Origin: Natronomonas pharaonis DSM 2160
Lineage (GTDB): Archaea > Halobacteriota > Halobacteria > Halobacteriales > Haloarculaceae
Assembly: GCF_000026045.1 (NCBI RefSeq)
Contig: NC_007426.1
Coordinates: 1,488,001 to 1,552,000 of the forward strand
Reading direction: 5' to 3'
Length of the DNA stretch: 64,000 nucleotides
A program made the translations under genes and the position numbers. The notes beneath the pieces were generated by a model, which worked only from the letters and a program-made list of their open reading frames with translations, had not been told where the DNA came from and searched no databases. This document shows positions 4,097-23,974 of the stretch, in pieces; positions within the stretch are counted from its first letter, which is position 1, and each line of letters begins with the position of its first letter.

Positions 4097-5737
4097 ATGG
4101 CATCTAATCACACGGACAGTCGGCTCGAGTCGCTCCGTCGGCAGCTACGACGCACAGCGGAGCTACTACAGGGAACGACCGTTCCGGGCGGTGCGTATCG
4201 ACCGAGCGACCACAGCCCGATAGTCGGGGATCACGATGTTGATGGCCGGGTCGTGGACCAGTACTGGCTGAACGCCCCCTTTTCATACGCCGTTATCAGC
4301 TACGACGAGACCGAAAGCCAGCACCGATATCACGCTATCGAGCCCGACCTCGACCGATTCGAGAGCGACCTGCTCGAGACACTGTACGACGACGTTCGCG
4401 CCCCGCTACTGTATGAGAAACGAGACGAACCGCCCGAGGAGGCGCTCCGTCAGGAGCTTCGCCGACGCCTCCAGCAGTACGGAACGAATATCGACACGGC
4501 GACGGTTTATCGCCTCTTCTACTATCTATACCGCCGGTTTCAGGGCTTCGGACGGCTTGACCCACTGATGTACGACCCACACATTGAGGATATCTCCTGT
4601 GACGGCTACGAGCTGCCGCTGTACATCTACCACGATGACTATCAAGATATCGAGTCGAACATCACCTTCGACCGGGACGAGCTCGATAACTACATCATCC
4701 GGATGGCCCAGCAATCCGGTCGGCACATCTCCGTCGGTAATCCCATCGTCGAGACGACGCTGCAGGATGGGTCCCGTGCTGAACTGGCGCTCGGTGAGGA
4801 AGTCACTCCTCGCGGGTCGGCGTTTACCGTCCGGAAATACAGCGACGAGCCGTTCACCCCTATCGACCTGTTGGAGTACGGTACCTACTCGCTCGAGCAG
4901 ATGGCATATCTCTGGATGGCCATCGAGCACAACAAGAACATCGTCTTCGCTGGCGGGACAGCATCCGGCAAGACGACGTCGATGAACGCTATCTCAATGT
5001 TCATCCCGCCGCGGTCGAAGCTGATTACCATCGAGGACACCCGGGAGCTGTCGCTGTACCACGACAACTGGCTCTCGTGTGTCACCCGCGAACGGCTCGA
5101 CGAAGGAGCCGACGTGACGATGTACGACCTGCTCCGGTCTTCGCTCCGCCATCGCCCCGAGTACATCATCGTCGGTGAGGTGCGTGGTGAAGAGGCCATT
5201 ACGCTGTTTCAGGCGATGAACACCGGTCACACAACGCTGTCGACGATGCACGCCGACTCGGTGCAGACAGTCATCAACCGGCTCGAAAACGAGCCCATCA
5301 ACGTGCCGCGACCGATGGTCCAGTCGCTGGACGTGCTCTGTGTCCAGACGCTCGCCCGCTTCGGCGGCGAGCGGGTCCGCCGCGCGAGCACCATCGCCGA
5401 AATCGAGGGTATCGACCAGCGAACCGGCGAACTCGACTACACCAACGCGTATCGGTGGGAATCGGGGTCCGACGAGTTCCGGGAAGGGACCCGAAGCTTG
5501 ATGGATGAAATCCGAGAGGAGCGTGGCTGGTCGCAGTCGGAGCTGCTTCGCGAACTGCAGCGGCGGCGGCTGGTGTTGCAGTTCCTGCAGGAACGGGGTG
5601 TCAACGAGTACCAGCGGTTTACAGCCATGGTCAACCGGTACTACGCCTCGCCGGATACGGTGATGCAACGCATTGAGGAAGCGGAGACGGACCTCGACAC
5701 CGACCTCGATGACAAATCGGACCAACAGCAAGCATAA
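4097..5737 (+). CDS. Type IV pilus/secretion ATPase (PilB/TadA-like)
   Basis: A 546-residue secretion ATPase of the archaeal pilus/archaellum superfamily. It would drive assembly of a surface pilus from the cytoplasmic face of the membrane. The Walker A loop (GGTASGKTT) lies near residue 286. The Asp box (ITIEDTREL) lies near residue 312, and the Walker B/His box region (YIIVGEVRGEEA ... TLSTMHADS) near 356-391. An N-terminal domain of about 150 residues precedes the PilT/VirB11-like core. A TATA-like TTTATTAG at about 4043 precedes the gene. Its stop overlaps the start of the next gene (TAATG), so the two form one operon. No pilin or prepilin peptidase gene is adjacent. Confidence 0.92.
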   Translation: MASNHTDSRLESLRRQLRRTAELLQGTTVPGGAYRPSDHSPIVGDHDVDGRVVDQYWLNAPFSYAVISYDETESQHRYHAIEPDLDRFESDLLETLYDDVRAPLLYEKRDEPPEEALRQELRRRLQQYGTNIDTATVYRLFYYLYRRFQGFGRLDPLMYDPHIEDISCDGYELPLYIYHDDYQDIESNITFDRDELDNYIIRMAQQSGRHISVGNPIVETTLQDGSRAELALGEEVTPRGSAFTVRKYSDEPFTPIDLLEYGTYSLEQMAYLWMAIEHNKNIVFAGGTASGKTTSMNAISMFIPPRSKLITIEDTRELSLYHDNWLSCVTRERLDEGADVTMYDLLRSSLRHRPEYIIVGEVRGEEAITLFQAMNTGHTTLSTMHADSVQTVINRLENEPINVPRPMVQSLDVLCVQTLARFGGERVRRASTIAEIEGIDQRTGELDYTNAYRWESGSDEFREGTRSLMDEIREERGWSQSELLRELQRRRLVLQFLQERGVNEYQRFTAMVNRYYASPDTVMQRIEEAETDLDTDLDDKSDQQQA

Positions 5738-7755
5738 TGTTCCGGTTCCTCCCGCTTGTCGCCGCGGTGGGTGTCACGGCCGTTCTTGTTGCGGCCCCTT
5801 TCATCGGCCGTATCGATACAATGGTCTCGCGGTTGGCGTTTCGGCTCTTCGACGGCCGGTCGATATCGGCTCCGCCTCAGCGAACGAAGCTGCTTCGCGG
5901 GGCGGCAATCGGGACTCCCTACCGCGAGTACGCCACGAAGACCTATTTTTATATCGTCTTCGCGGCCGCAGTGGGTGCCGTTTTCGGGGTTTACGCCGGT
6001 GCTGGGGTGTTCGCACTCGTGGAAACGTACGGCCCCGGCGTCCCGACAGTGCTACCGACCGTCTTCGGGCTGGATGGCACTCGGCTCGCACTGTTGCTCC
6101 TCACCAGCGGGCTCGTCGGCTCACTGGCTGCGGGCGGAGCGTATGCGGCCCGATGGCGGCTGCCATCCATCCGTGCCGACGCCAGACAGCGGCAGATAGA
6201 CGCCAGCCTGCCGCGGATGGTCGCCTTTACGTATGCGCTCACCCGCGGCGGGATGTCGTTTCCCGATGTGCTTCGGACGCTCTCACAGAACGAGGATGTC
6301 TTCGGTGAGGGGGCCGCCGAGATCGGCGTCGTTGTCAGGCGGATGGACCTGTTCAACGTCGACCTCGTAACAGCGGTCCAAGACATCTCACAGCAGACAC
6401 CCTCCGAACAGTTCGCACAGTTCTCCGAGAACCTCGTCAGCGTACTCCAGAGCGGCCAGAACGTTTCGACGTTTCTCCGCGAACAGTACGAGCGGTACCG
6501 CGACGAGGCCGAAGAACAGCAGAAAGAAATTCTTGAGTTACTCGCGACGGCAGCCGAGGTCTACGTTACCGTCATCGTCGCTGGGATGCTGTTTCTGGTC
6601 ACGATACTGCTCATCATCGGGCTGACCGTCGGTGAGACGCTGTTTATTATGCAGGCCATCGCCTATGTCATCATCCCAGCAGCGAACCTGCTGATACTGT
6701 CGTATCTGCTCGAAATTACCCAACCCCTCCGGACGGGAGGCGAGGCCCGACAGCTCCTCGGTGTCGGTGGTGCGGCAACGCCACAAGAAGTCGTCGACAC
6801 CAGCAGTGAGTACCACCACCCGCAGTCGGCTGAAAACCACGAGCGTCTCGACGCCTACCGTCGCATCCAGTCGATTCAGGAGACGCTTGCGAGTCCGGTG
6901 CAGTCGCTGGTTACCCGTCCGACCCTGCTGCTCTACGTAACGGTGCCAATTGCCCTCGTCGTCACCGCCTATCGGCTGCCGGGGGCAATCGCCGGCGGCA
7001 GCATCGACATCGAGGTGCTTGACGACATCCTCATTCAAGCGGCCATCTTCCTGATGGGAACCTTCGCCGTCGTCTACGAGGTAAGCAAATACCGACTCCG
7101 GCGACTGGAGCAGGCCGTTCCGGACTTCCTCGACCGGCTCGCCAGCCTCAACGAGGCCGGCATTTCCGTCGTCTCGTCGCTGGACCGCGTCCGTGACAGC
7201 GATGTCGGCGCACTCGACGACGAAGTAAACCGCATCTGGCGGGACATCGAATGGGGTGCGACCGTCGAACAATCGCTAAACCGGTTTGAAAGCCGGGTCA
7301 AGACCCCATCTGTCACTCGCGTGGTGACGCTGATCACGAATTCGATGCGGGCCTCCAACGAAATCGGCCCGGTTCTCAGAATCGCCGCCGAGCAAGCACG
7401 CTCCGACCTCCGGCTCCGGCGACAGCGTCGCCAGGAGATGCTCACCTACCTCGTGGTCATCTACGTCTCGTTTCTGGTCTTTTTGATCGTCATTCTCGCA
7501 CTCGATTATGTGCTCATCCCGAGCCTGCCGGATGCCGAAGCGCTCGCCGGGCCTGAGGGCGCACCAGCAATGCTCGGAGGCTTTGAGGGGGGCGATGAAG
7601 AGGCCTACCAGCTCATCTTCTTCCACACCGCCGTCATCCAGTCGACGCTCTCTGGGGTTGTCGGCGGCGTCATGGGGGGCGGCTCGATAAAAGACGGTAT
7701 GAAGCATTCGACGGCCATGCTGACAATAACGTATGTGCTGTTGACCCTGCTGTAG
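5737..7755 (+). CDS. Type II/IV secretion membrane platform protein (TadB/TadC, GspF family)
   Basis: A 672-residue multi-pass membrane protein that should form the inner-membrane platform for the ATPase encoded immediately upstream, whose stop codon overlaps its start. Two GspF-type domains are present in tandem. Both share the pattern 'LPRMVAFTYALTRGGMSFPDVLRTL' (about residues 158-182) and its counterpart 'VPDFLDRLASLNEAGISVVSSL' (about 460-481), and each is followed by paired hydrophobic helices. Hydrophobic segments open the protein (residues 3-27), recur near 70-125 and 280-330, and close it. Double-length TadC proteins of this sort are usual in archaeal pilus loci. Confidence 0.9.
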   Translation: MFRFLPLVAAVGVTAVLVAAPFIGRIDTMVSRLAFRLFDGRSISAPPQRTKLLRGAAIGTPYREYATKTYFYIVFAAAVGAVFGVYAGAGVFALVETYGPGVPTVLPTVFGLDGTRLALLLLTSGLVGSLAAGGAYAARWRLPSIRADARQRQIDASLPRMVAFTYALTRGGMSFPDVLRTLSQNEDVFGEGAAEIGVVVRRMDLFNVDLVTAVQDISQQTPSEQFAQFSENLVSVLQSGQNVSTFLREQYERYRDEAEEQQKEILELLATAAEVYVTVIVAGMLFLVTILLIIGLTVGETLFIMQAIAYVIIPAANLLILSYLLEITQPLRTGGEARQLLGVGGAATPQEVVDTSSEYHHPQSAENHERLDAYRRIQSIQETLASPVQSLVTRPTLLLYVTVPIALVVTAYRLPGAIAGGSIDIEVLDDILIQAAIFLMGTFAVVYEVSKYRLRRLEQAVPDFLDRLASLNEAGISVVSSLDRVRDSDVGALDDEVNRIWRDIEWGATVEQSLNRFESRVKTPSVTRVVTLITNSMRASNEIGPVLRIAAEQARSDLRLRRQRRQEMLTYLVVIYVSFLVFLIVILALDYVLIPSLPDAEALAGPEGAPAMLGGFEGGDEEAYQLIFFHTAVIQSTLSGVVGGVMGGGSIKDGMKHSTAMLTITYVLLTLL

Positions 7756-7855
7756 GCGCTGTGGTCGAAGGGGGTCCGGACGGGCGCTGGCAGGCACAAC
7801 GCCAGCGAGTCCGCGGGACCACGGCCTTCATATCCGCCCGGACCGGACGCCGCAT

Positions 7856-8488
7856 ATGGACGACAGGCCGGGCGTGCGGGCGACCTACGAACGTATCGCC
7901 GACCACTTTGCGGAGACGAGGGAATACCCCTGGCCCGAAGTCGAGTCTTTCTGTGCGGACCGCCACGTTGTGACCGCCCTCGACGTTGGGTGTGGAAACG
8001 GGAGGCACACGGAACTGCTCGGCGCACACGCCGACCACGTCATCGGCATCGACGCCAGCGGCCGCCTACTCGCGCTGGCACGTGAGCGCGCACCGAATGC
8101 GGCGTTCCTTGAGGCCGACGCTGCCGCGCTCCCGCTTGCCGACGGTGTCGTCGACCTCGCAGTCTACGTTGCGACGCTGCATCATCTCCCAAGCCGCGAG
8201 CTTCGGCGACAGAGCCTCGATGAACTCGCCCGCGTACTCGATGAGAGCGGAACGGCGCTCGTCAGCGCGTGGAGCACCGCCCACGACCGCTTCGACGCCG
8301 ATGAAGACGCCGAGGACGGCTTTGACACGGATGTCGAGTGGACGCTGCCCGGCGGCGAGACCGTGCCGCGGTTCTACCACATCTATGCGCCCGCCGAGTT
8401 CGATACCGACATCGCCGAAAGCGACCTCACGGCCGTCGACTCGTTTGTCTCCAGCGGCAACTGTTATGCGGTCGTCGAGGCAGCCTGA
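7856..8488 (+). CDS. SAM-dependent methyltransferase, Trm9-like
   Basis: A 210-residue class I methyltransferase. Motif I (LDVGCGNGRHTELL) lies at about residues 43-56, an acidic residue ends strand 2 (VIGIDAS, about 62-68) and motif II/IV (DLAVYVATLHHLPS) is near 101-114. The N-terminal 'YERIADHFAETREYPWPEV' block is characteristic of the Trm9/wobble-uridine methyltransferase-like group, although the true substrate (tRNA or a small molecule) cannot be told from sequence. The ATG at 7856 begins just ahead of this block. The gene lies directly upstream of tRNA-Gly on the same strand. Confidence 0.85.
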   Translation: MDDRPGVRATYERIADHFAETREYPWPEVESFCADRHVVTALDVGCGNGRHTELLGAHADHVIGIDASGRLLALARERAPNAAFLEADAAALPLADGVVDLAVYVATLHHLPSRELRRQSLDELARVLDESGTALVSAWSTAHDRFDADEDAEDGFDTDVEWTLPGGETVPRFYHIYAPAEFDTDIAESDLTAVDSFVSSGNCYAVVEAA

Positions 8489-8539: not shown

Positions 8540-8610
8540 GCGCCGATGGTCTAGTGGTAGGACCTGAGCCTTCCAAGCTCATGGCCCGGGTTCAAATCCC
8601 GGTCGGCGCA
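8540..8610 (+). tRNA. tRNA-Gly (anticodon UCC)
   Basis: A full cloverleaf can be drawn. The acceptor stem is 8540-8546 with 8603-8609 and discriminator A 8610. The D stem is GGTC/GACC (8548-8551 with 8561-8564). The anticodon stem is TGAGC/GCTCA (8565-8569 with 8577-8581) and the loop carries TCC at 8572-8574. The T stem is CCGGG/CCCGG around TTCAAAT. CCA is not encoded and there is no intron. Its 3' half, from 8567 on, is part of the long direct repeat that borders the downstream island. Confidence 0.97.
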
Positions 8611-8673
8611 CTCCCAGCGGTCGTTTGCCGACCGACTTCTCGTTCGCTTTGCTCACGAGAATCCCGGTCGGCG
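8567..8673 (+). repeat. Left 107-bp direct repeat (attL-like), overlapping tRNA-Gly
   Basis: This 107-bp sequence is identical base for base to 13564-13670. It starts in the anticodon stem of tRNA-Gly, contains the rest of the tRNA, about 50 bp of spacer with two small hairpins (GGTCG/CGACC and TTCTCGT/ACGAGAA), and then a second copy of the tRNA 3' end. The second copy, AATCCCGGTCGGCGCA at 8660-8675, repeats 8595-8610. Such a structure is what one or more site-specific integrations at a tRNA 3' end leave behind. Confidence 0.9.
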
Positions 8674-8963
8674 CATACTCGACTCCGTCGCGTCCTGCAC
8701 TTTTCAGACATCTCTAAGGTGAATACAAGATGCCGAAAAAGCTCAATGCCCGGCTGTACCCAACCCACACCGCCGCCGCATTGCGATTTTCAAAAGTGTC
8801 CGGCCCAAAATAGAAAAACCGACAGACGGCAACGGGGGACCCGTCTAATGGACAAAATCGGAACAGCCCTCATCGTCGGGAACAACGTCAAAGGGTCAAT
8901 GGTAGGAATCAGAAAGATAAGTGATGCGATAATTATAGGCTCCTACCGGACGGATAGTTGTCA

Positions 8964-9146
8964 ATGTCCTCGATGGAACCACCAAAGGCATTGATGGTTG
9001 TTGACCTCCGAGAGCTGGCGCTAATTTACGAGATGAGTAAAGAGGCATCTCAAGATACAGCTCGGCACAGTAGCGACCGGGGAACAGCAGCGGAACTGCA
9101 CGAGAAGTGTACGGAGCTTCTTGGCCGAGACGAGACCTCGAAGTAG
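8964..9146 (+). CDS. Small hypothetical protein of the tRNA-Gly island
   Basis: A 60-residue ORF beginning MSSMEPPKAL, with ATG at 8964 (an in-frame TTG at 8958 is less likely). A TATA-like element (ATAATTATAGG, about 8929-8939) sits about 28 bases upstream, which fits a leaderless transcript and supports a real gene. The protein is hydrophilic and probably helical, without Cys pairs or an obvious helix-turn-helix. It precedes the restriction-modification gene by about 195 bp on the same strand, so a regulator or accessory role is possible, but nothing in the sequence proves it. Confidence 0.4.
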   Translation: MSSMEPPKALMVVDLRELALIYEMSKEASQDTARHSSDRGTAAELHEKCTELLGRDETSK

Positions 9147-9310
9147 TTTCAGCTATGCCGGTTGCGTGGTAAGTAAACGAAACGTGCCTGAATTGCGGGG
9201 GTGACGACGATGTGGGAGTGTCTGTAAAGGAAGAAGACAGCGGTGAGAAAGAGTGCTATACTGTGAGTCGTGTGGATGCGAGTGGTCGTAGATGCGGTAA
9301 CAGGGTACGA

Positions 9311-9319
9311 TTTTTATAA
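9311..9319 (+). promoter_or_regulatory. TATA element of the restriction-modification gene
   Basis: TTTTTATAA is centred about 26 bases before the ATG at 9341, as expected for a leaderless haloarchaeal transcript. It indicates that the large gene has its own promoter, separate from the small upstream ORF. The spacer 9147-9340 holds nothing else that I recognise. Confidence 0.6.
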
Positions 9320-9340
9320 GTCGGACGTAACGGCCTACAT

Positions 9341-12300
9341 ATGTCTTCGAGTGGTGACTTACTCGACGCCCTCCACGGAATTGCTAACCGCGTTGACGAT
9401 GATATGAGTGAACGCGATATCGAGAATCTATTCATTGAGACTGGGTTCTACAGTACGCTCGGCTACGAAGGGACAGGGACGGATATCCGAAGCGAATTTA
9501 CGCTCTCTGACGACCGTCGACCGGACTACATAACTCTCGACACCAACGAGGCAGTTACCGCTGTCTACGAGTTCAAAACCAGCGGGCGAAGTCTTCCACC
9601 ACACGAGTCGCAGCTATTCCACTACATGGAGAATCTGCGAGCGGAGTACGGCGTCCTAACGAACGGAGAGGAGCTGCGGCTCTATCGACGAGACAAAGAA
9701 AGCGCCGTTCTTGCCGTCTCGCTTGAAGCGGTTTCTGAATCTGATGCGAGAGACCTGTTCAGCACCCTCCAGAAGCGTGAGTTCGACCTCACAGACCCGG
9801 ACGATGTGAATCAATTCCTTACCGGACTCGACCCGATACCGCTCGATGAAAAAGCCGAACTGGGTCAGGAACACTTCTTCGATACCTTCCGGCTGGAAGA
9901 AGGCAGTCCATTCGCCGACCTCGTTACTGGTATGATGGATTTGCTGGAGGAGCTGCGTGACGACCGGGAAGCCAAATTCGTCAAAGGAGCCTACGACTTC
10001 TGGGAGGCTACCTACGCCGATGTACCCGATGATGACGAGATTCCAGATTCATGGGAGCCGTTCATCGACGGCGACCAGTCAATCCATGACTTTATGTTCT
10101 GTCTTGAGAGCGGCCACGCGCTCTTGTCTCGGGTGCTGCTGGCGAAGGCGACCGAAGACCACGATTTCTTCGTGGGCACCGGCTACGACGGAATGGGTGA
10201 ATACTTCCACGGCTTGCAGGGGTTCGGCGACAGCATCAACCTCGACGCCTTCCCGGTCGCAGCCGACAACCTCATCGACGATATGCAGGAGCAGTTGGTC
10301 GAAGGGCTGTTCCAAGACGACATTTTCGTTTGGTGGACGGACGGCTACGCGGAAGAAATATCGCGGGGACACGATACTGGTGCGAGCCAGTTTGAGGCCG
10401 TGGCGACTGGTCGCGGTGATGAGGGCGGTGTTACCCGTATCAGCGAAGCCACGCGCAATCGTTTTAGCCGCGCCGTCGCGGAGGTCTTCTTCAACGTTCT
10501 CCGGTTCGACTTCGGAGATATACAGGGCGACCTCCTTGGAGACCTCTATCAGAAATACTTCGACCCGGAGACACGCAAGGCGCTCGGAGAGTTCTACACG
10601 CCGCAGCCGGTCGTAGACTACATTATGGACGGCGTCGGGTATGAGCGTGGGGTCTCGAATGAACGCCTCATTGACCCCGCCTGTGGGTCTGGTACGTTCC
10701 TCGTTGAGGCTGTCGAGCGGTATATCGAAGATGTAGAGCAGTACGAAGACGACCCGGACTGGAAAGAGCATCTTCAAGACCTCTGCACGCGCCCTCGTGT
10801 CGTCGGTCTCGATATTCACCCCTTCGCCGTGTTGATGGCGCAGATTCGTTTTGTCGTGGCTGTCCTCCCTGCGTACCGCGAGGCAAAACAGCAGCATCCC
10901 GGCTATACAATCCGTCGTCTGCCCATCTACCGAACTGACACGCTTCGGAACGAGCGGGAACTGACTGGGGCCGACCTCGGCGACGACGGCACCCGTCAGA
11001 TGACCTTCGACGCGATGACCGAGGACGAACAGGACGTTCGGATTCCCGTCCCCCTCCCGGTTGAAGTTGACGAGTCTGAGGTAGCCGAGACAGAAGACGG
11101 CTTCCTCGTCCGTCGCGTTCGGATGCCGCTATTCGATACCATTCAATTGGAAACCGGCGTGAACAATTTCGGGGAGTATTTCGCGGCGCTTCAGGGTGTG
11201 CTGGATACAGTCAAAGACCACATGGCGCTGGCAGAGGAGTTCGGCGACGACTTCGATTGGTCGTATCAGAGCGGCCTCGAAGAACGAATCAATCACCACA
11301 CCGAACGGGACTATGACGGCGTAGAGGAGTTCTTCGCGCCCTACGTTGACGATATGCTGGAGAACGTTCGTTACCTCAAAGAGGAACACAACGACGGGCG
11401 GCTGTTCAAGATATTCGAGGACACCGTTCTCGCCCTTGTCGTGAAGAACTACATGGAGTACGACTACGTTGTTGGCAATCCGCCGTACGTTCGAAAAGAA
11501 TCAATTCCATCAGAATATAAACAGAATATCCTGAAACCGCTATATCCAGAAGTATACACCGGCAATGCGGATTTATCAGTCTATTTTGCTCAACGAGGTA
11601 TAGAGCTACTCCGGGAAGGGGGAAAAATGAGCTACATCACCTCGATTAAGTTTACAAAATCGACGTACGGTGAGGGTATACGCAACTCAATTTTATCGGA
11701 TACACAAATCAAAGAGTTTTCGAATTTCGAGATGAGTAATTTCTTTGAGGATGCGACAGCGTATCCCTGTGTATTTGTTCTGGAAGAGGGTGCGCCAAAC
11801 AATGATTACGACATTCCTGTAATTTATGCAAAAGACAAGCCAAATGATGTAAGTTCGGCTATCCAAACGATGCGTGACGCGATACGGAATCCAGACACCG
11901 TACGGGCAGATTATTTTGAGCGATATATCACCCGGAAAAGCAACCTCGATGAACGGGAATGGAGATTTGTCCCGAAAGAGGCAAACGATGCATTCGAAAA
12001 AGTAGATAATCTGAAAGAGGCGGTGTTATCGGAGGTAATGGAAGATATTTCTGCGGGAATAAAGACTGGTATGAATAGCGTGTTCATTTTGGAAGACGAT
12101 GAAACAGACAAGGTTGAAGATGAGCTTCTTCATCCCATCCTTCGCGGCAATGAAATCAAAAAGTACGATATTGGAATACCTGATGAACACGTAATCTACA
12201 CAAACGGCGTTCAAATTGACGACTATCCACAGGCTAAATCATATCTATCGGAATATAGGGAGAAGCTTGCAAATCGGAGCGATGGGGCATTCAAAGGCAA

Positions 12301-13117
12301 AGAATGGTTTGAGCTGAATATACCCCTCTCGACTGAGGTTCTTGATAGCAACAAGATACTGTGCCCGGACATCTCTGAAGAAAACAATTTTGCGTATGAT
12401 ACGGAAGCAACGCATATATTGAATACTGCATATCTCCTCCGGGCAACTGACGACTCAGATTATAGTTTGAAGTATCTAACCGGACTTTTGAACTCGAATG
12501 TATTGGAGTTCTACGTGAAAATGATTAGTCCACCGCTCCGTGGTGGCTATCACAGATATATTACCAAATATCTTGAGCCACTACCTGTGAAATCCGACGT
12601 AGACTCAGTAACAAAAGTAGAGCAACAAGTGGATGAAATTCGTGATATCAAACGAAAAGAAGAGAAAGCGAGCAAATTCCCAAAAGCGTACGTAGATGAG
12701 TACGGTGGCGAACTCGATTACATCACCTACGAGTGGCAGACCCGCCGCTACCCGGTTAATGCCGAAGTACAAGGCGACGTAGATGGAGACTTCACGGTGC
12801 AGGCCGGTCGGTCAGACACAATCAGCGACCCCGCAATGTACTCTGACGACCGCGAGGCTCGAAAGCGCCGAGCCGAGTACGTTCACGCTGCCGTAGACGG
12901 TCGCAATGTCAAGAGCGGCGAGGAGACCACAATCCCGATTCCACGAAGCGATGACGGCGTGGCAGCGCTTCTCGAAGAATTAGAGGCGGATAAGAAGGAG
13001 GTTCAGGAAACCTCGATTGAGGAATTGGAAGCAGAGATTGATGAAGCAGTTTACGACCTATTTGAACTGACAGCGGAGGAACGCGAGGTCGTAGAGGAGT
13101 ATCTGGAAGTCTTCTAA
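9341..13117 (+). CDS. Single-chain restriction-modification enzyme (type IIG/Eco57I-like adenine methylase with nuclease domain)
   Basis: A 1258-residue fusion protein. The N-terminal 120 residues carry a PD-(D/E)xK-like nuclease pattern (Asp62, Glu77-x-Lys79). The N6-adenine methyltransferase core has 'FYTPQPVVDYIM' before motif I (DPACGSGTF, residues 445-453) and the catalytic NPPY at 713-716. A long C-terminal part should recognise the DNA target. This order (nuclease, helical linker, methylase, specificity) matches single-polypeptide type IIG enzymes that both cut and methylate. No separate R, S or BREX partner genes are present. DNA from about 11500 to 12700 (roughly residues 720-1120) is markedly AT-richer, suggesting a recently acquired specificity region. 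Confidence 0.88.
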   Translation: MSSSGDLLDALHGIANRVDDDMSERDIENLFIETGFYSTLGYEGTGTDIRSEFTLSDDRRPDYITLDTNEAVTAVYEFKTSGRSLPPHESQLFHYMENLRAEYGVLTNGEELRLYRRDKESAVLAVSLEAVSESDARDLFSTLQKREFDLTDPDDVNQFLTGLDPIPLDEKAELGQEHFFDTFRLEEGSPFADLVTGMMDLLEELRDDREAKFVKGAYDFWEATYADVPDDDEIPDSWEPFIDGDQSIHDFMFCLESGHALLSRVLLAKATEDHDFFVGTGYDGMGEYFHGLQGFGDSINLDAFPVAADNLIDDMQEQLVEGLFQDDIFVWWTDGYAEEISRGHDTGASQFEAVATGRGDEGGVTRISEATRNRFSRAVAEVFFNVLRFDFGDIQGDLLGDLYQKYFDPETRKALGEFYTPQPVVDYIMDGVGYERGVSNERLIDPACGSGTFLVEAVERYIEDVEQYEDDPDWKEHLQDLCTRPRVVGLDIHPFAVLMAQIRFVVAVLPAYREAKQQHPGYTIRRLPIYRTDTLRNERELTGADLGDDGTRQMTFDAMTEDEQDVRIPVPLPVEVDESEVAETEDGFLVRRVRMPLFDTIQLETGVNNFGEYFAALQGVLDTVKDHMALAEEFGDDFDWSYQSGLEERINHHTERDYDGVEEFFAPYVDDMLENVRYLKEEHNDGRLFKIFEDTVLALVVKNYMEYDYVVGNPPYVRKESIPSEYKQNILKPLYPEVYTGNADLSVYFAQRGIELLREGGKMSYITSIKFTKSTYGEGIRNSILSDTQIKEFSNFEMSNFFEDATAYPCVFVLEEGAPNNDYDIPVIYAKDKPNDVSSAIQTMRDAIRNPDTVRADYFERYITRKSNLDEREWRFVPKEANDAFEKVDNLKEAVLSEVMEDISAGIKTGMNSVFILEDDETDKVEDELLHPILRGNEIKKYDIGIPDEHVIYTNGVQIDDYPQAKSYLSEYREKLANRSDGAFKGKEWFELNIPLSTEVLDSNKILCPDISEENNFAYDTEATHILNTAYLLRATDDSDYSLKYLTGLLNSNVLEFYVKMISPPLRGGYHRYITKYLEPLPVKSDVDSVTKVEQQVDEIRDIKRKEEKASKFPKAYVDEYGGELDYITYEWQTRRYPVNAEVQGDVDGDFTVQAGRSDTISDPAMYSDDREARKRRAEYVHAAVDGRNVKSGEETTIPIPRSDDGVAALLEELEADKKEVQETSIEELEAEIDEAVYDLFELTAEEREVVEEYLEVF

Positions 13118-13563
13118 AGATGCATTGATTTGATTGTGGCGACCGCGTCCGGGCGACCTTCCTGACGAGACCGACTCTGACGACGAGCTGTATCACGGCA
13201 GACACGGCGAGGTAGCTGGTTTCCGCTGGCGTGATTTGCGGCCACCATAGACCGGCGGCGTTCCTGTCGTATTCGAGCCCATCTAAGGAATCTACGATTG
13301 GTGTTGGTTGTTCGTTGGCTATGGCCTGCGTGTAGCGAACTCTCTCGGCATCTATTGATGCAGACTAAAGAGTTATGCAAAACTGATTAAGCGGCAGTTA
13401 GAGGCTTTCTATCCCGTGTTTTGGTTTCATGTAATTGTGGGCTAATCGCTTACAGGCTCATGGAGTGGGGTTTATATAGTATTGGTTCGTTTGAGGACGG
13501 TAGAGGGGCCTGAAAAGGGCAATACGGCGCTGTAATCGTGGTCTTGGTCTACGGGTACCTCGT
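13118..13563. other. Non-coding right part of the island
   Basis: No convincing gene is present between the restriction-modification gene and the right repeat. There is a clear TATA-like TTTATATAG at about 13471-13479 with no ORF of note behind it. Just before the right repeat, 13545-13557 resembles the D-arm of tRNA-Gly (TGGTCTA, then GGGTA), as if a decayed longer tRNA copy stood here. Possible short peptides in this stretch have no support. Confidence 0.5.
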
Positions 13564-13670
13564 AGCCTTCCAAGCTCATGGCCCGGGTTCAAATCCCGGT
13601 CGGCGCACTCCCAGCGGTCGTTTGCCGACCGACTTCTCGTTCGCTTTGCTCACGAGAATCCCGGTCGGCG
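13564..13670 (+). repeat. Right 107-bp direct repeat (attR-like), tRNA-Gly 3' part
   Basis: Identical over all 107 bases to 8567-8673. It contains the anticodon arm to the 3' end of tRNA-Gly without the 5' acceptor strand, so it cannot form a functional tRNA. It also contains the same spacer and the second partial tRNA end. It marks the right boundary of the island; past it the chromosome resumes with the thioredoxin-like gene on the opposite strand. Confidence 0.9.
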
Positions 13671-13737: not shown

Positions 13738-13771
13738 TTACCGTTCGGAAATACAGCGACGAACCGTTCAC
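13738..13771 (+). pseudogene. 34-bp fragment matching the pilus ATPase gene
   Basis: Bases 13738-13771 match 4824-4857, inside the pilus/secretion ATPase gene, at 32 of 34 positions. They would encode the same TVRKYSDEPFT peptide. The flanking sequence does not match. The fragment ends across the stop codon of the thioredoxin-like gene read from the other strand. It may be a relic of a second secretion ATPase, for instance from a lost mobile element, or a local duplication. Confidence 0.4.
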
Positions 13772-19813: not shown

Positions 19814-21403
19814 ATGACCGCAAGCGGCCACAGGCGAGTGCTGACACTAGCCGGGGCCGTCGTACTCGTCGCCGTGACGCTCGGGGCCGTCGGCGTCGCC
19901 GACGCACAGCTCAACCGCGGTGACCCGTCGCTCGATGTCTACCTCCCGGACAACGAGGTCGACCCGGGCACTGAAGCCGAACTCGCCGTCCAGATACAGA
20001 ACGACGCCGATGTGAGTGCCGGCACCGGTACTGAAGGCGTGACGACGGCACGGGCAGTCGAAGTCGAGGTGACAGATGACGGCCCCTTCGAGATACCGAC
20101 CGAGAAGACGCCCATCGGGTCGATAGCCGATGGGACGACCGGGACAGCCAATCTCAATGTCCGTGTTCCAGAAACCATCGACCCCGGAACCTACGAAATC
20201 GACTTGCGCGTTCGGTACTCGGCGACGAGACAAGAAAGCAGCGTCGGCGACCAGCGGGTTCGCCGAAGCACCCGCGAGACCGTCGAGGTTCGTATCGCCG
20301 ACGGCGTCCGGTTCGACATCGACGAAGTCTGGACGGATGTCCAACCCGGGACGACCGGCGATGCGACGGTCGTCTTGGAAAACACCGGCAGCGAAACCGC
20401 GTACGGCGCTCGCGCAACAGTGACTGGCAGCGGCGGCGTCACCATCGACGACGGTGCTGCAGAGGCGTTCCTCGGTGACTTGGAGGCCGGCGACAGTGAG
20501 ATGGTCACCGTCGACGCCGCGGTCGCCGAAGCGGTCGGCGGGGGTCCGAAGCCGGTAGAGGCCACCCTCAACTATCGGGACGAGAACGGCGTCGAACGTG
20601 GAAGCCGGACGGTCGACGGCAGCCTCGACTCGCTTTCGGCGCAGTCGTTCAGCATCGAGGCCCTCGAGGACACGCTCGCGGTCGGCTACGATGGCCGGAT
20701 AACCGGAACGGTCAGGAACGACGGCCCGAAGACGCTGACCGACGGTGTACTGGTCGCTGAGCCGGCCAGTGACTCGCTTTTCATCGAGGAACAGCGCGTC
20801 GCGCTGTCCGAATTGGCTCCCGGGGAGACAGAGTCGTTCGTCTACCCGACCGATGTCAGCGGGCAGGCTGAAGCCGGGCCACGGCAGGTTCGGTTCACGC
20901 TGGAGTACGCTGACGGAGGCCGAACAACCGCATCCGTCGGGCCGGTCTCGGAACGTGTTGTCGTCGACGACCAGCGGGATGCGTTCACCATCACCAGCGA
21001 AGACATCCGCATCCAGCAAGGCAGTACCGAGGTGATTTCGCTGACGTTGACGAACGAACGACCGGAGACGCTCAGCAACCTCAACGCGCGGCTTTACACC
21101 GATAGCCCGCTGTCATCCGGCAGCGACGAGGGATTCATCAACGAACTCGCTCCGGGCGAGTCCGACGATGTTCGGTTCGAGGTAAGCGCCAGCAGCCGCG
21201 GGATGCCGAACACCTACCGGGTCGAAATCGACATCCAGTACGACACGGAGCGTGGCGATACCGTCCTCTCGCGGACCTACCAGCATCCTGTCGAGGTCGA
21301 AGAGCGCACCGACGACGGCGACGACGGTCCCTCACTGCTTCTGATAGCCCTTGTCGTCGCTGCCCTCGTCGGCGCGGGCATCTGGTGGCGACGGCGGGAC
21401 TGA
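19814..21403 (+). CDS. Exported beta-sandwich protein with C-terminal anchor (COG1361-like)
   Basis: A 529-residue surface protein. A signal peptide (hydrophobic residues 9-31, ending in ADAQ) is followed by several immunoglobulin-like/CARDB-type repeats with recurring 'VxNxGxxxxxG' patterns (TVVLENTGSETAYGA near 177; ITGTVRNDGPKTLTDGV near 295; LTLTNERPETLSN near 413). A final membrane helix (about residues 508-525) ends in Arg-Arg. In haloarchaea such proteins are commonly encoded next to RND-type permeases. Here the permease gene starts three bases after the stop, so the two are surely an operon and probably a complex. Confidence 0.82.
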   Translation: MTASGHRRVLTLAGAVVLVAVTLGAVGVADAQLNRGDPSLDVYLPDNEVDPGTEAELAVQIQNDADVSAGTGTEGVTTARAVEVEVTDDGPFEIPTEKTPIGSIADGTTGTANLNVRVPETIDPGTYEIDLRVRYSATRQESSVGDQRVRRSTRETVEVRIADGVRFDIDEVWTDVQPGTTGDATVVLENTGSETAYGARATVTGSGGVTIDDGAAEAFLGDLEAGDSEMVTVDAAVAEAVGGGPKPVEATLNYRDENGVERGSRTVDGSLDSLSAQSFSIEALEDTLAVGYDGRITGTVRNDGPKTLTDGVLVAEPASDSLFIEEQRVALSELAPGETESFVYPTDVSGQAEAGPRQVRFTLEYADGGRTTASVGPVSERVVVDDQRDAFTITSEDIRIQQGSTEVISLTLTNERPETLSNLNARLYTDSPLSSGSDEGFINELAPGESDDVRFEVSASSRGMPNTYRVEIDIQYDTERGDTVLSRTYQHPVEVEERTDDGDDGPSLLLIALVVAALVGAGIWWRRRD

Positions 21404-21406
21404 CGG

Positions 21407-23974
21407 ATGGCCGACGGCGATACCCCGGACGCCGGTGACGATTTCGACCGCGATGACAGCTTGGTTCCGGATGCCGGTGCCGGAAAAGACCCCGACAGAG
21501 ACCAACACCCGTGGCTGCAGCGAATCAACTCGCTCATCACCGCACGTCCGTGGGCCATCGTTGCGGTCTTCCTTGCGGTGACTGTGCTGTTTATTGGGGG
21601 TTTGGGCGCTGGCGGCGACCAGCAGGCCGGTACCGACCAGTTCACGGAGGAACTGGAGGAGGCCGACGCCTTGGAGGACATGGAGGAAAACTTCGAACGG
21701 GGAACCAGGTCAACCGGCGGCAGCAGCGCGACGCTGTTTATCGACGAGGGGAACGTCCTCTCGAAGGACAGCCTCCTGCGGATGTTGGAGGCACAACACC
21801 GGCTGGAGACCCACGACCGGCTGCGAGTCACCTCGACGACCAGTCCCGCATCACTCACCGCCCAACAGCTTGACCCCGACGCCGACAGCGCCGAGGAAAA
21901 ACAGCGGGCGGTCAGGCGGGCCTCGCCGGGGCAGCTCCGGACCGCAGTCAACGACGCCGACGAAGCCGCATCGCTGCCGGTCAGTACTGATTTCAACCGT
22001 GCTGACCCCTCTGCGTCGGTCGCACAGCTCGCGGTCAGCTATGACACGCCGCCGATGGCGGACGACAGCGACCGCGCATCGCTGCAGTTCCGCACCGTCG
22101 ATGTCGTCGCCGGCGTCGACGGCTACGAGCCGGGCGAAAACGTCGTCGTCTTCGCCGATGCCATCATCGACCAGGAAGTAAACCAACTGCTGACCGACAC
22201 CGCAGTGCTCGTGTTCCCGGCTGCCCTCCTGCTCATCATCTTTTTCCTCATCGTCGCCTACCGTGACCCGATTGACCTCGGGTTGGGCATCGCCGCACTC
22301 CTGATGACGCTCGTCTGGACGTTCGGTTTCATGGGGTATGCCAATATCCCGTTCTCCGACTCGCTGGTCACCGTTTTCCCGCTGTTGCTCGCGGTCGGTA
22401 TCGACTTCGGCATCCATATCATCAACAGGTATCGCGAAGAGCGGCTTGCCGGGGCGGAAATCACTGACGCGATGGATATTACAGTCCGACAGCTCTCTGC
22501 GGCGTTTCTCATCGTCACGCTCACGACCGTCATCAGCTTCATGGCGAACCTCACTAGCTCGCTGGACCAGTTGCAGGACTTCGGTATCGTCGCTGCCGTC
22601 GGCATGGTGTTTACCTTCCTCATTTTCGGCGTCTTCCTGCCGGCCGGTAAGGTTGCCTTCGACGGCCTCCGCGAGGGGACTCGGTTCCCGACGTTCGGTA
22701 CCCGGCCGCTCGGTCGCGAGGAATCCATCCTCGGCCGGATACTGCCCGTCGGGGCGACAGCGGCGAAGGTCGCCCCGGCAGTCGTATTGGTGTCGGCGCT
22801 CGTCATCGGCGGCGTCGGGGGTGCATACGGGACCGGCGTCGACACGGAGTTCTCACAGGAGGCGTTCTTCCCCGACGAGGAGCGTATCGAGACGCTACAA
22901 GTGCTCCCCGAGCCGTTCGCACCCTCTCAGTATACGTTCATGTCGGTGCTCAACTATCTTGAGGAAGACTTCGACCAGGGCTTTGTCGGCAGCGTCACCG
23001 TCTATATTGAAGACAGGGCCGTCCGCTCGGATGTCGCACTCGAGGACATCGACCGAGCACTACAGGACCCGCCGGAGGCGTTTGTGTCCGAAGAACGACG
23101 CGCCGACGCGACGAGCATCGTCGGCGTCATGGAGTCGCGTGCGGCCGCCGACCCGGAGTTTGCCGCGACCGTCGAACGATACGATACGACGAACACCGGG
23201 GTCCCGGACCGGAACGTCGACACCGTCTACGAGGAACTGTTCGACTCGCCGGCTGAAGACGAAGCCCTCGGCTCCCTGACGCGGGACCGAAGCGCCACGC
23301 GCATCCAGTATCAACTTGACGCCGATACCGACCAGACCGAGGCGACAGCGGCCGCGGAGACGGTCGCCGATGGGATGCGGATGGACGCTATCCCGACCGG
23401 GCAACTGGTCGTCAATCAGGTCGTTATCGACCGCATTACCGACTCGGCTATTACCAGCCTCATCGTCGCGTTCCTGCTGACAGCGGTGTTTCTCATGGTC
23501 TCCTACCGGTGGCTCGAAGGGCGGGCAATCTACGGGCTCATCAATCTCGTGCCGGTGCTCGTGACTGTCGGCGTACTCGCCGGGTCAATGCGCTACTTCG
23601 GAGTGCCGCTGACGCCGTTCAACGCGCCGATACTCTCGGTGTCTATCGGGCTCGGCGTCGACTATACGGTCCACTTCATGCACCGCTTCGTCGACGAGTA
23701 CGAGGGCGGCCGGGATGTCCACGAGGCGCTCCGGGTGACCGCACAGGGCACTGGCGGTGCGCTGACCGGCAGCATGTTGACGACCGTCTGCGGGCTAGGC
23801 GTTCTCTATATCGCTGTCATCCCGCTCATCGCAGAGTTCGGGCTGCTGTTGGCGCTCGGCGTCCTCTATGCGTATCTGGCATCGATTCTCGTGCTCCCAG
23901 CGACGGTCGTCGTCTGGCACTACCTCGAAACCGACCTGCTGGCCGGCGTTGGTGACTACATTACAAACAGATAA
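21407..23974 (+). CDS. RND/MMPL-family membrane transporter
   Basis: An 855-residue protein with the RND layout of two halves, each with one leading helix, a large external loop and a block of five helices. The first block starts near residue 263 ('DTAVLVFPAALLLIIFFLIV') and the second near 683 ('DSAITSLIVAFLLTAVFLMV'). Conserved-type helix-4 segments 'VGIDFGIHIINRYREE' and 'IGLGVDYTVHFMHRFVDEY' resemble the proton-relay helices of MMPL/HpnN proteins. It should export a lipid or hydrophobic molecule, or act on the membrane, using the proton or sodium gradient. The substrate is unknown. It is translated just after the exported partner. Confidence 0.88.
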   Translation: MADGDTPDAGDDFDRDDSLVPDAGAGKDPDRDQHPWLQRINSLITARPWAIVAVFLAVTVLFIGGLGAGGDQQAGTDQFTEELEEADALEDMEENFERGTRSTGGSSATLFIDEGNVLSKDSLLRMLEAQHRLETHDRLRVTSTTSPASLTAQQLDPDADSAEEKQRAVRRASPGQLRTAVNDADEAASLPVSTDFNRADPSASVAQLAVSYDTPPMADDSDRASLQFRTVDVVAGVDGYEPGENVVVFADAIIDQEVNQLLTDTAVLVFPAALLLIIFFLIVAYRDPIDLGLGIAALLMTLVWTFGFMGYANIPFSDSLVTVFPLLLAVGIDFGIHIINRYREERLAGAEITDAMDITVRQLSAAFLIVTLTTVISFMANLTSSLDQLQDFGIVAAVGMVFTFLIFGVFLPAGKVAFDGLREGTRFPTFGTRPLGREESILGRILPVGATAAKVAPAVVLVSALVIGGVGGAYGTGVDTEFSQEAFFPDEERIETLQVLPEPFAPSQYTFMSVLNYLEEDFDQGFVGSVTVYIEDRAVRSDVALEDIDRALQDPPEAFVSEERRADATSIVGVMESRAAADPEFAATVERYDTTNTGVPDRNVDTVYEELFDSPAEDEALGSLTRDRSATRIQYQLDADTDQTEATAAAETVADGMRMDAIPTGQLVVNQVVIDRITDSAITSLIVAFLLTAVFLMVSYRWLEGRAIYGLINLVPVLVTVGVLAGSMRYFGVPLTPFNAPILSVSIGLGVDYTVHFMHRFVDEYEGGRDVHEALRVTAQGTGGALTGSMLTTVCGLGVLYIAVIPLIAEFGLLLALGVLYAYLASILVLPATVVVWHYLETDLLAGVGDYITNR

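Follow-up and report, generated by a model that had tools for sequence, protein, structure and literature searches.

How did a single restriction-modification (RM) gene come to lie, without an integrase, between two long perfect repeats at a tRNA gene? The question is raised by a locus of the archaeon Natronomonas pharaonis DSM 2160, which we analyzed within a 64-kb stretch of DNA (64,000 nucleotides; hereafter the window). This stretch is part of a 2,595,221-bp chromosome, in a genome of 2,749,696 bp on three contigs. The initial annotation had described an integrase-less island bounded by 107-bp perfect repeats in tRNA-Gly, the trace of an integration event, and had proposed a minimal defence cassette moved in trans. 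The repeats and their target are as it described:

8540..8611, + strand: tRNA-Gly(UCC), the target gene, intact (ARAGORN; gene order tadC, methyltransferase, tRNA-Gly(UCC) kept in the genus)
8567..8673, + strand: left 107-bp repeat, attL-like (exact repeat; module 77–91% identical beside tRNA-Gly in relatives lacking the RM gene)
13564..13670, + strand: right 107-bp repeat, attR-like (exact repeat)

The direct repeat starts in the anticodon loop of tRNA-Gly(UCC) and ends 62 bp beyond the gene, i.e., it consists of the 45-nt tRNA 3′ half followed, in the left copy, by a 62-bp locus-native module that ends in a second copy of the tRNA tail (AATCCCGGTCGGCG). Integration at the tRNA gene is borne out by this coverage of the 3′ half, which leaves the target intact. 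No other exact repeat of ≥40 bp occurs in the window, and genome-wide the 107-bp unit was found at these two places only, a third match being the tRNA part of another tRNA-Gly at 85% identity. A dispersed repeat, which would have spoken against site-specific integration, is thereby ruled out. The island between the repeats has a GC content of 51.7%, compared to a mean of 62.6% (SD 2.9) for 4952-bp window stretches.

A home-made integrase HMM found no PF00589-like ORF or fragment in window positions 1–24000, in agreement with the description of the island as integrase-less. Among the traits of tRNA-integrated elements, tRNA 3′ repeats at both ends and an intact target are therefore accompanied by the absence of an own integrase. 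The island is also similar to a cis-mobilizable element (CIME) in that att sites are kept and recombination genes are absent, the loss of the latter being suggested by integrase-bearing relatives. One further feature was evaluated next to the right repeat:

13545..13563, + strand: possible decayed tRNA 5′ half, weak (TGGTCTAcgGGTA; alignment reaches tRNA position 8, shuffle p ~0.04)

Because this p value is only ~0.04 and the feature is missing from several sister islands, it was left out of the argument.

The content of the island had been summarized as a single-chain RM gene, a small ORF, and non-coding DNA. The first two items stand, while the third is incomplete, as two pseudogene remnants lie in the supposedly non-coding part:

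8964..9146, + strand: 60-codon ORF (60 aa), gene status doubtful (ORF list; searches for relatives)
9155..9297, + strand: zinc-ribbon gene remnant, frameshifted and with a stop (tblastx to L097, L079, and L085, E 2e-10 to 7e-5; translations)
9341..13117, + strand: Type IIG restriction-modification gene, 1258 aa (Pfam domains, PADLOC, conserved motifs, identity dip in the target-recognition domain)
13155..13247, + strand: SH3-like small gene remnant with an internal deletion (tblastx to L079, L097, L085, and L104; translations)

The product of the long gene carries Eco57I, N6_Mtase, and TaqI_C domains (PF07669, PF12950) and a weak HSDR_N N-terminus, and is recognized by the PADLOC models for Type II methyltransferase and Type IIG. 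It displays an N-terminal nuclease motif (PD-x19-EFK) and the N6-adenine methylase motifs DPACGSGTF and NPPY. Across 25 aligned sequences, the nuclease motif is conserved in 25/25, DP[AS]CGSGT in 25/25, and NPPY in each of the 24 that extend to its position. With nuclease, methylase, and specificity domain in one polypeptide, the island enzyme qualifies as Type IIG (Type IIC), like other Eco57I/PglX-like enzymes that combine PD-(D/E)xK, N6-adenine methylase, and target-recognition domain (TRD) in one chain (PMC10609329, PMC4176335). An identity as BREX PglX was rejected, since the best model score was 125 bits against a cutoff of 400 and the nuclease motif is present. Mean identity of the relatives to the window protein, in 60-residue steps, is 0.64–0.89 up to residue 720, falls to 0.21–0.45 over residues 721–1140, a stretch that covers the variable TaqI_C TRD (about residues 721–1110), and then returns to 0.82. 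Such a dip between conserved parts is the pattern of an exchanged TRD: the window TRD is only ~29% alike to the other TRDs of the family, and L079 and L104 are more similar in their TRD (77%) than in their body (68%). Judged from these alignments, this is a family in which the nuclease and methylase parts are kept and the TRD is exchanged, and the strongly conserved body combined with an exchanged TRD sets this haloarchaeal subfamily apart from other Type IIG enzymes. The island enzyme probably still methylates and restricts a specific sequence today, an activity predicted from its motifs.

Intact relatives of the zinc-ribbon and SH3-like genes lie close together in RM islands L079, L085, and L097, the first two of which carry an integrase. 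In L097 and L079 the two genes are adjacent, and in the window the RM gene separates their remnants, suggesting that the RM gene may have entered the element separately. No relative of the 60-aa ORF at 8964–9146 was found in 146 family genomes, PLSDB, or Pfam.

Next, we evaluated where the RM family resides elsewhere. Searches of family genomes and GTDB contigs yielded ~25 distinct loci with the RM enzyme, in haloarchaea. Counting repeats of ≥21 bp (that of L099 is only 91% identical over 23 bp), 12 loci including the window are spanned by tRNA 3′ repeats, at seven different tRNA genes:

Gly(UCC): the window
Ala(CGC): L080, L085, L092, and L095
Thr(GGT): L079 and L081/L102
Thr(CGT): L088
Val(CAC): L090
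Leu(UAG): L082 and L099
Glu: L104

Several further loci of the family end at contig edges beside a tRNA. Within 20 kb, the probability that a tRNA end is matched exactly over ≥20 bp by chance is negligible. Beyond the RM gene, and the integrases within each integrase group, little is common to most islands. A tree of the conserved part of the RM protein was preferred because the TRD distorts the full-length tree, in which tRNA-site changes were as frequent as with shuffled labels. In the conserved-part tree, tRNA sites were somewhat clustered, with 10 changes compared to a shuffled mean of 12.1. A pattern scan of IMG/VR detected no RM relative that would point to viral carriage, and the plasmid search returned only Halorussus megaplasmids, ~70% identical at the DNA level, along with one partial Halobaculum match. 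The RM gene and the tRNA are arranged identically over 23.9 kb on two Halorubrum salinum scaffolds (L088 and L089), reflecting a large duplication of recent date or else an effect of the assembly.

Tyrosine integrases (PF00589) were found in or beside the RM island at 12 loci, and fall into two groups without BLAST similarity to each other: group A in L079, L099, L100, L103, and L104, and group B in L080, L085, L088, L090, L092, L095, and L096. The four Ala(CGC) integrases share 72–95% identity, and the integrase reading frame of L081/L102 contains two in-frame stops. RM bodies 93–94% identical to each other are found in L079 (Thr, group A), L080 and L085 (Ala, group B), and L102 (Thr, decayed integrase), which form one well-supported group in the tree (100/98), so that unrelated integrases accompany what is almost one and the same RM gene. 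In Halobium salinum L104, two integrases 54% identical to each other (7101–8222 and 20919–22028) lie one inside the tRNA-Glu RM island and the other just past its far repeat, like two tandem-integrated elements. In Halarchaeum acidiphilum (L103, 2042–5855) a break near residue 774 interrupts the RM reading frame, and in L094 (7802–11991) the C-terminal part of the frame is disturbed, indicating that the RM gene, too, is subject to decay.

Given this family context, we consider it probable that the island is a decayed tRNA-integrated element, CIME-like and stranded in tRNA-Gly(UCC), and not a purpose-built minimal cassette. The repeat running from the anticodon loop across the tRNA 3′ end and the low GC of the island both favor this reading. 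Sequence comparisons point the same way, through the remnants matching integrase-bearing RM islands, the recurrence of the family at tRNA 3′ repeats, the L081/L102 integrase with its stops, the tRNA-Leu islands holding the RM gene alone (see below), and the intact RM motifs. As no integrase remnant survives in the window island, a former integrase there is inferred from the relatives. Specifically, a tRNA-targeting haloarchaeal element carrying the single-chain Type IIG gene and small genes would have entered the tRNA 3′ half without disrupting the tRNA gene, so that another copy of this half now marks the far end. Thereafter it would have lost its integrase and most of its other genes, with two neighbors persisting as pseudogenes while the RM gene stayed open. 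Survival of the RM gene amid this decay could be explained, by analogy, by post-segregational killing, an established effect of some Type II systems (see PMC3031569 for discussion). The island may still be subject to excision or mobilization: its repeats should permit rare loss by homologous recombination, and should likewise let a later element at this site capture it, i.e., accretion. Several observations count against the decayed-element reading: the two remnants on either side of the RM gene come from genes that are neighbors in other islands, a 43-bp stretch just right of the left repeat resembles sequence of G001 (see below), and the right flank is placed elsewhere in relatives, leaving the right junction without a clean empty counterpart.

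CIMEs and microCIMEs were defined for streptococcal elements (PMC7563491). The window island resembles a CIME in retaining att-like repeats and cargo after its recombination genes have gone, and differs from streptococcal CIMEs in its archaeal host, its cargo of one RM gene, and the fact that accretion was not observed. Unlike CIMEs derived from ICEs or IMEs, no parent conjugative or mobilizable element was identified for it. Archaeal tRNA-targeting integrative elements use tyrosine recombinases, and att sites of 102 and 243 bp have been reported for them (PMC8371274). They share with the window island and its relatives an att site in the tRNA 3′ half, a preserved target, PF00589 integrases (in the sister islands), and an att length above 100 bp, but the window island is without an integrase or replication gene. 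The repeat, whose length the initial annotation had stressed, is longer than the tRNA part, yet this is not special on its own given the known archaeal att lengths and a 62-bp portion that is native to the locus.

The strongest competitor takes up the reading of the initial annotation: a true minimal defence cassette of att sites and one RM gene would be satellite-like and moved in trans by an integrase of another element recognizing the same tRNA end. Islands with the RM gene alone do recur. Besides the window, which is the third case and has the longest repeat of the three, L082 holds the RM gene alone between tRNA-Leu(UAG) tails over 4.3 kb, and in L087 (Halorussus marinus) the RM gene parts tRNA-Leu(UAG) from a chromosomal gene. 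Only these latter two have clean empty sites: in congeners G098 and G101 of L082, the tRNA, module, second tail, and right flank are contiguous without the RM gene, and in 7 of 11 congeneric loci checked for L087 the tRNA lies 0.4–1.3 kb from the chromosomal gene, again without it. A suitable integrase also exists, given the integrase-bearing RM island at tRNA-Gly(UCC) of Halarchaeum (L103). However, a similarity search, run with no positive control, found no relative of the L103 integrase in the window genome, and the islands with the RM gene alone differ from each other, with no common ends beyond the tRNA sequence and no near-identical copies at different sites among the islands found. The window island moreover contains pseudogene remnants of genes common to integrase-bearing RM islands, and a sister integrase carries two stops. 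Overall, a cassette moved in trans seems unlikely, and is not the best reading of the locus.

The tRNA-Gly locus of the genus bears on a second alternative. The order tadC, methyltransferase, tRNA-Gly(UCC) is conserved, and the RM gene is absent from this site in every congener examined. The left side is thus kept in the genus without the RM gene, whereas the right flank (thioredoxin-like gene and cysK) lies elsewhere in relatives, the thioredoxin-like gene in every congener where it was found, so that no clean empty site is available for the right junction. The 62-bp module is native to the locus, which is why the repeat extends past the tRNA: it occurs beside tRNA-Gly, 77–91% identical to that of the window, in relatives without the RM gene, in some as a single copy, and tandem tRNA-tail modules downstream of tRNA-Gly are common in the genus. 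A 34-bp piece of the upstream tadA-like gene (4824–4857) recurs with 94% identity at 13738–13771, where the thioredoxin-like gene has its 3′ end, just past the right repeat. A second tadA-like gene lies downstream of tRNA-Gly in seven relatives, and is not at that place in the window genome.

The native module and the frequent tandem modules would fit a duplication of the tRNA-Gly 3′ half with its module, followed by entry of foreign DNA between the copies through homologous recombination. So would the 43 bp at 8683–8725, just inside the left repeat, which are 86% identical to the sequence adjoining tRNA-Gly(UCC) in the genome G001, where no RM gene accompanies this tRNA. We regard this scenario as very unlikely, as the zinc-ribbon and SH3-like remnants are common to integrase-bearing islands and the same architecture recurs at six other tRNA genes. 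For the decayed element, the native module would mean that the attachment segment included it, hence the long repeat, and would point to an element that either had earlier resided at the tRNA-Gly site of a close relative or was inserted as a circle by homologous recombination.

Finally, insertion of the RM gene alone with a long target duplication, the tRNA being incidental, appears the least plausible origin: an RM gene flanked by long direct repeats that hold hardly anything more, and the position of this gene between remnants of two genes adjacent elsewhere, do recall the bacterial insertions described in the passages of PMC3031569 citing Nobusato 2000 and Furuta 2010, but the window repeats correspond to the 3′ end of a tRNA and hold further, decayed genes of the element, and such repeats at seven tRNA genes together with the many integrases of sister islands indicate site-specific recombination.

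Taken by itself, the window island is a remnant of an ordinary kind, and the added interest is in the recurrence of the family across tRNA sites and integrase lineages and in its end states with the RM gene alone. RM genes in Halobacteria are patchy and horizontally spread (Fullmer et al., PMC6471742), Type IIG genes are abundant in this class (Anton and Roberts, PMC10609329), and the main texts of both open-access papers make no mention of tRNA or integrase. Oliveira et al. (PMC4176335) asked how RM turnover can be fast when RM genes are rarely on recognizable mobile elements, and one RM family found repeatedly at tRNA sites within one archaeal class, with two unrelated integrase lineages, fits this question. 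Because such an island is sometimes left without an integrase, an integrase-based search for mobile elements would score it as an ordinary chromosomal gene. Searching RM genes for flanking tRNA-end repeats makes the question countable, and within the haloarchaeal set the vehicle, the target tRNA, and the DNA specificity each change on their own. A broader and rather doubtful extension is that the Type IIG gene is a semi-autonomous haloarchaeal mobile unit, which would switch between unrelated tRNA-targeting elements, exchange its TRD, and recurrently persist or travel as an RM-only tRNA-end cassette movable by resident or incoming integrases.

Gene-free modules of ~60–135 bp, each ending in a copy of a tRNA 3′ tail, also follow tRNA genes, sometimes in tandem, beside tRNA-Gly (window 8612–8673, L062, L065, L070, and L074) and tRNA-Leu (L082 8271–8389, L087, L098, and L101), some of them holding an inverted T-arm piece (GATTTGAACCC). 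As short tandem units these tRNA-tail modules resemble microCIMEs, and they may form a haloarchaeal class of their own.
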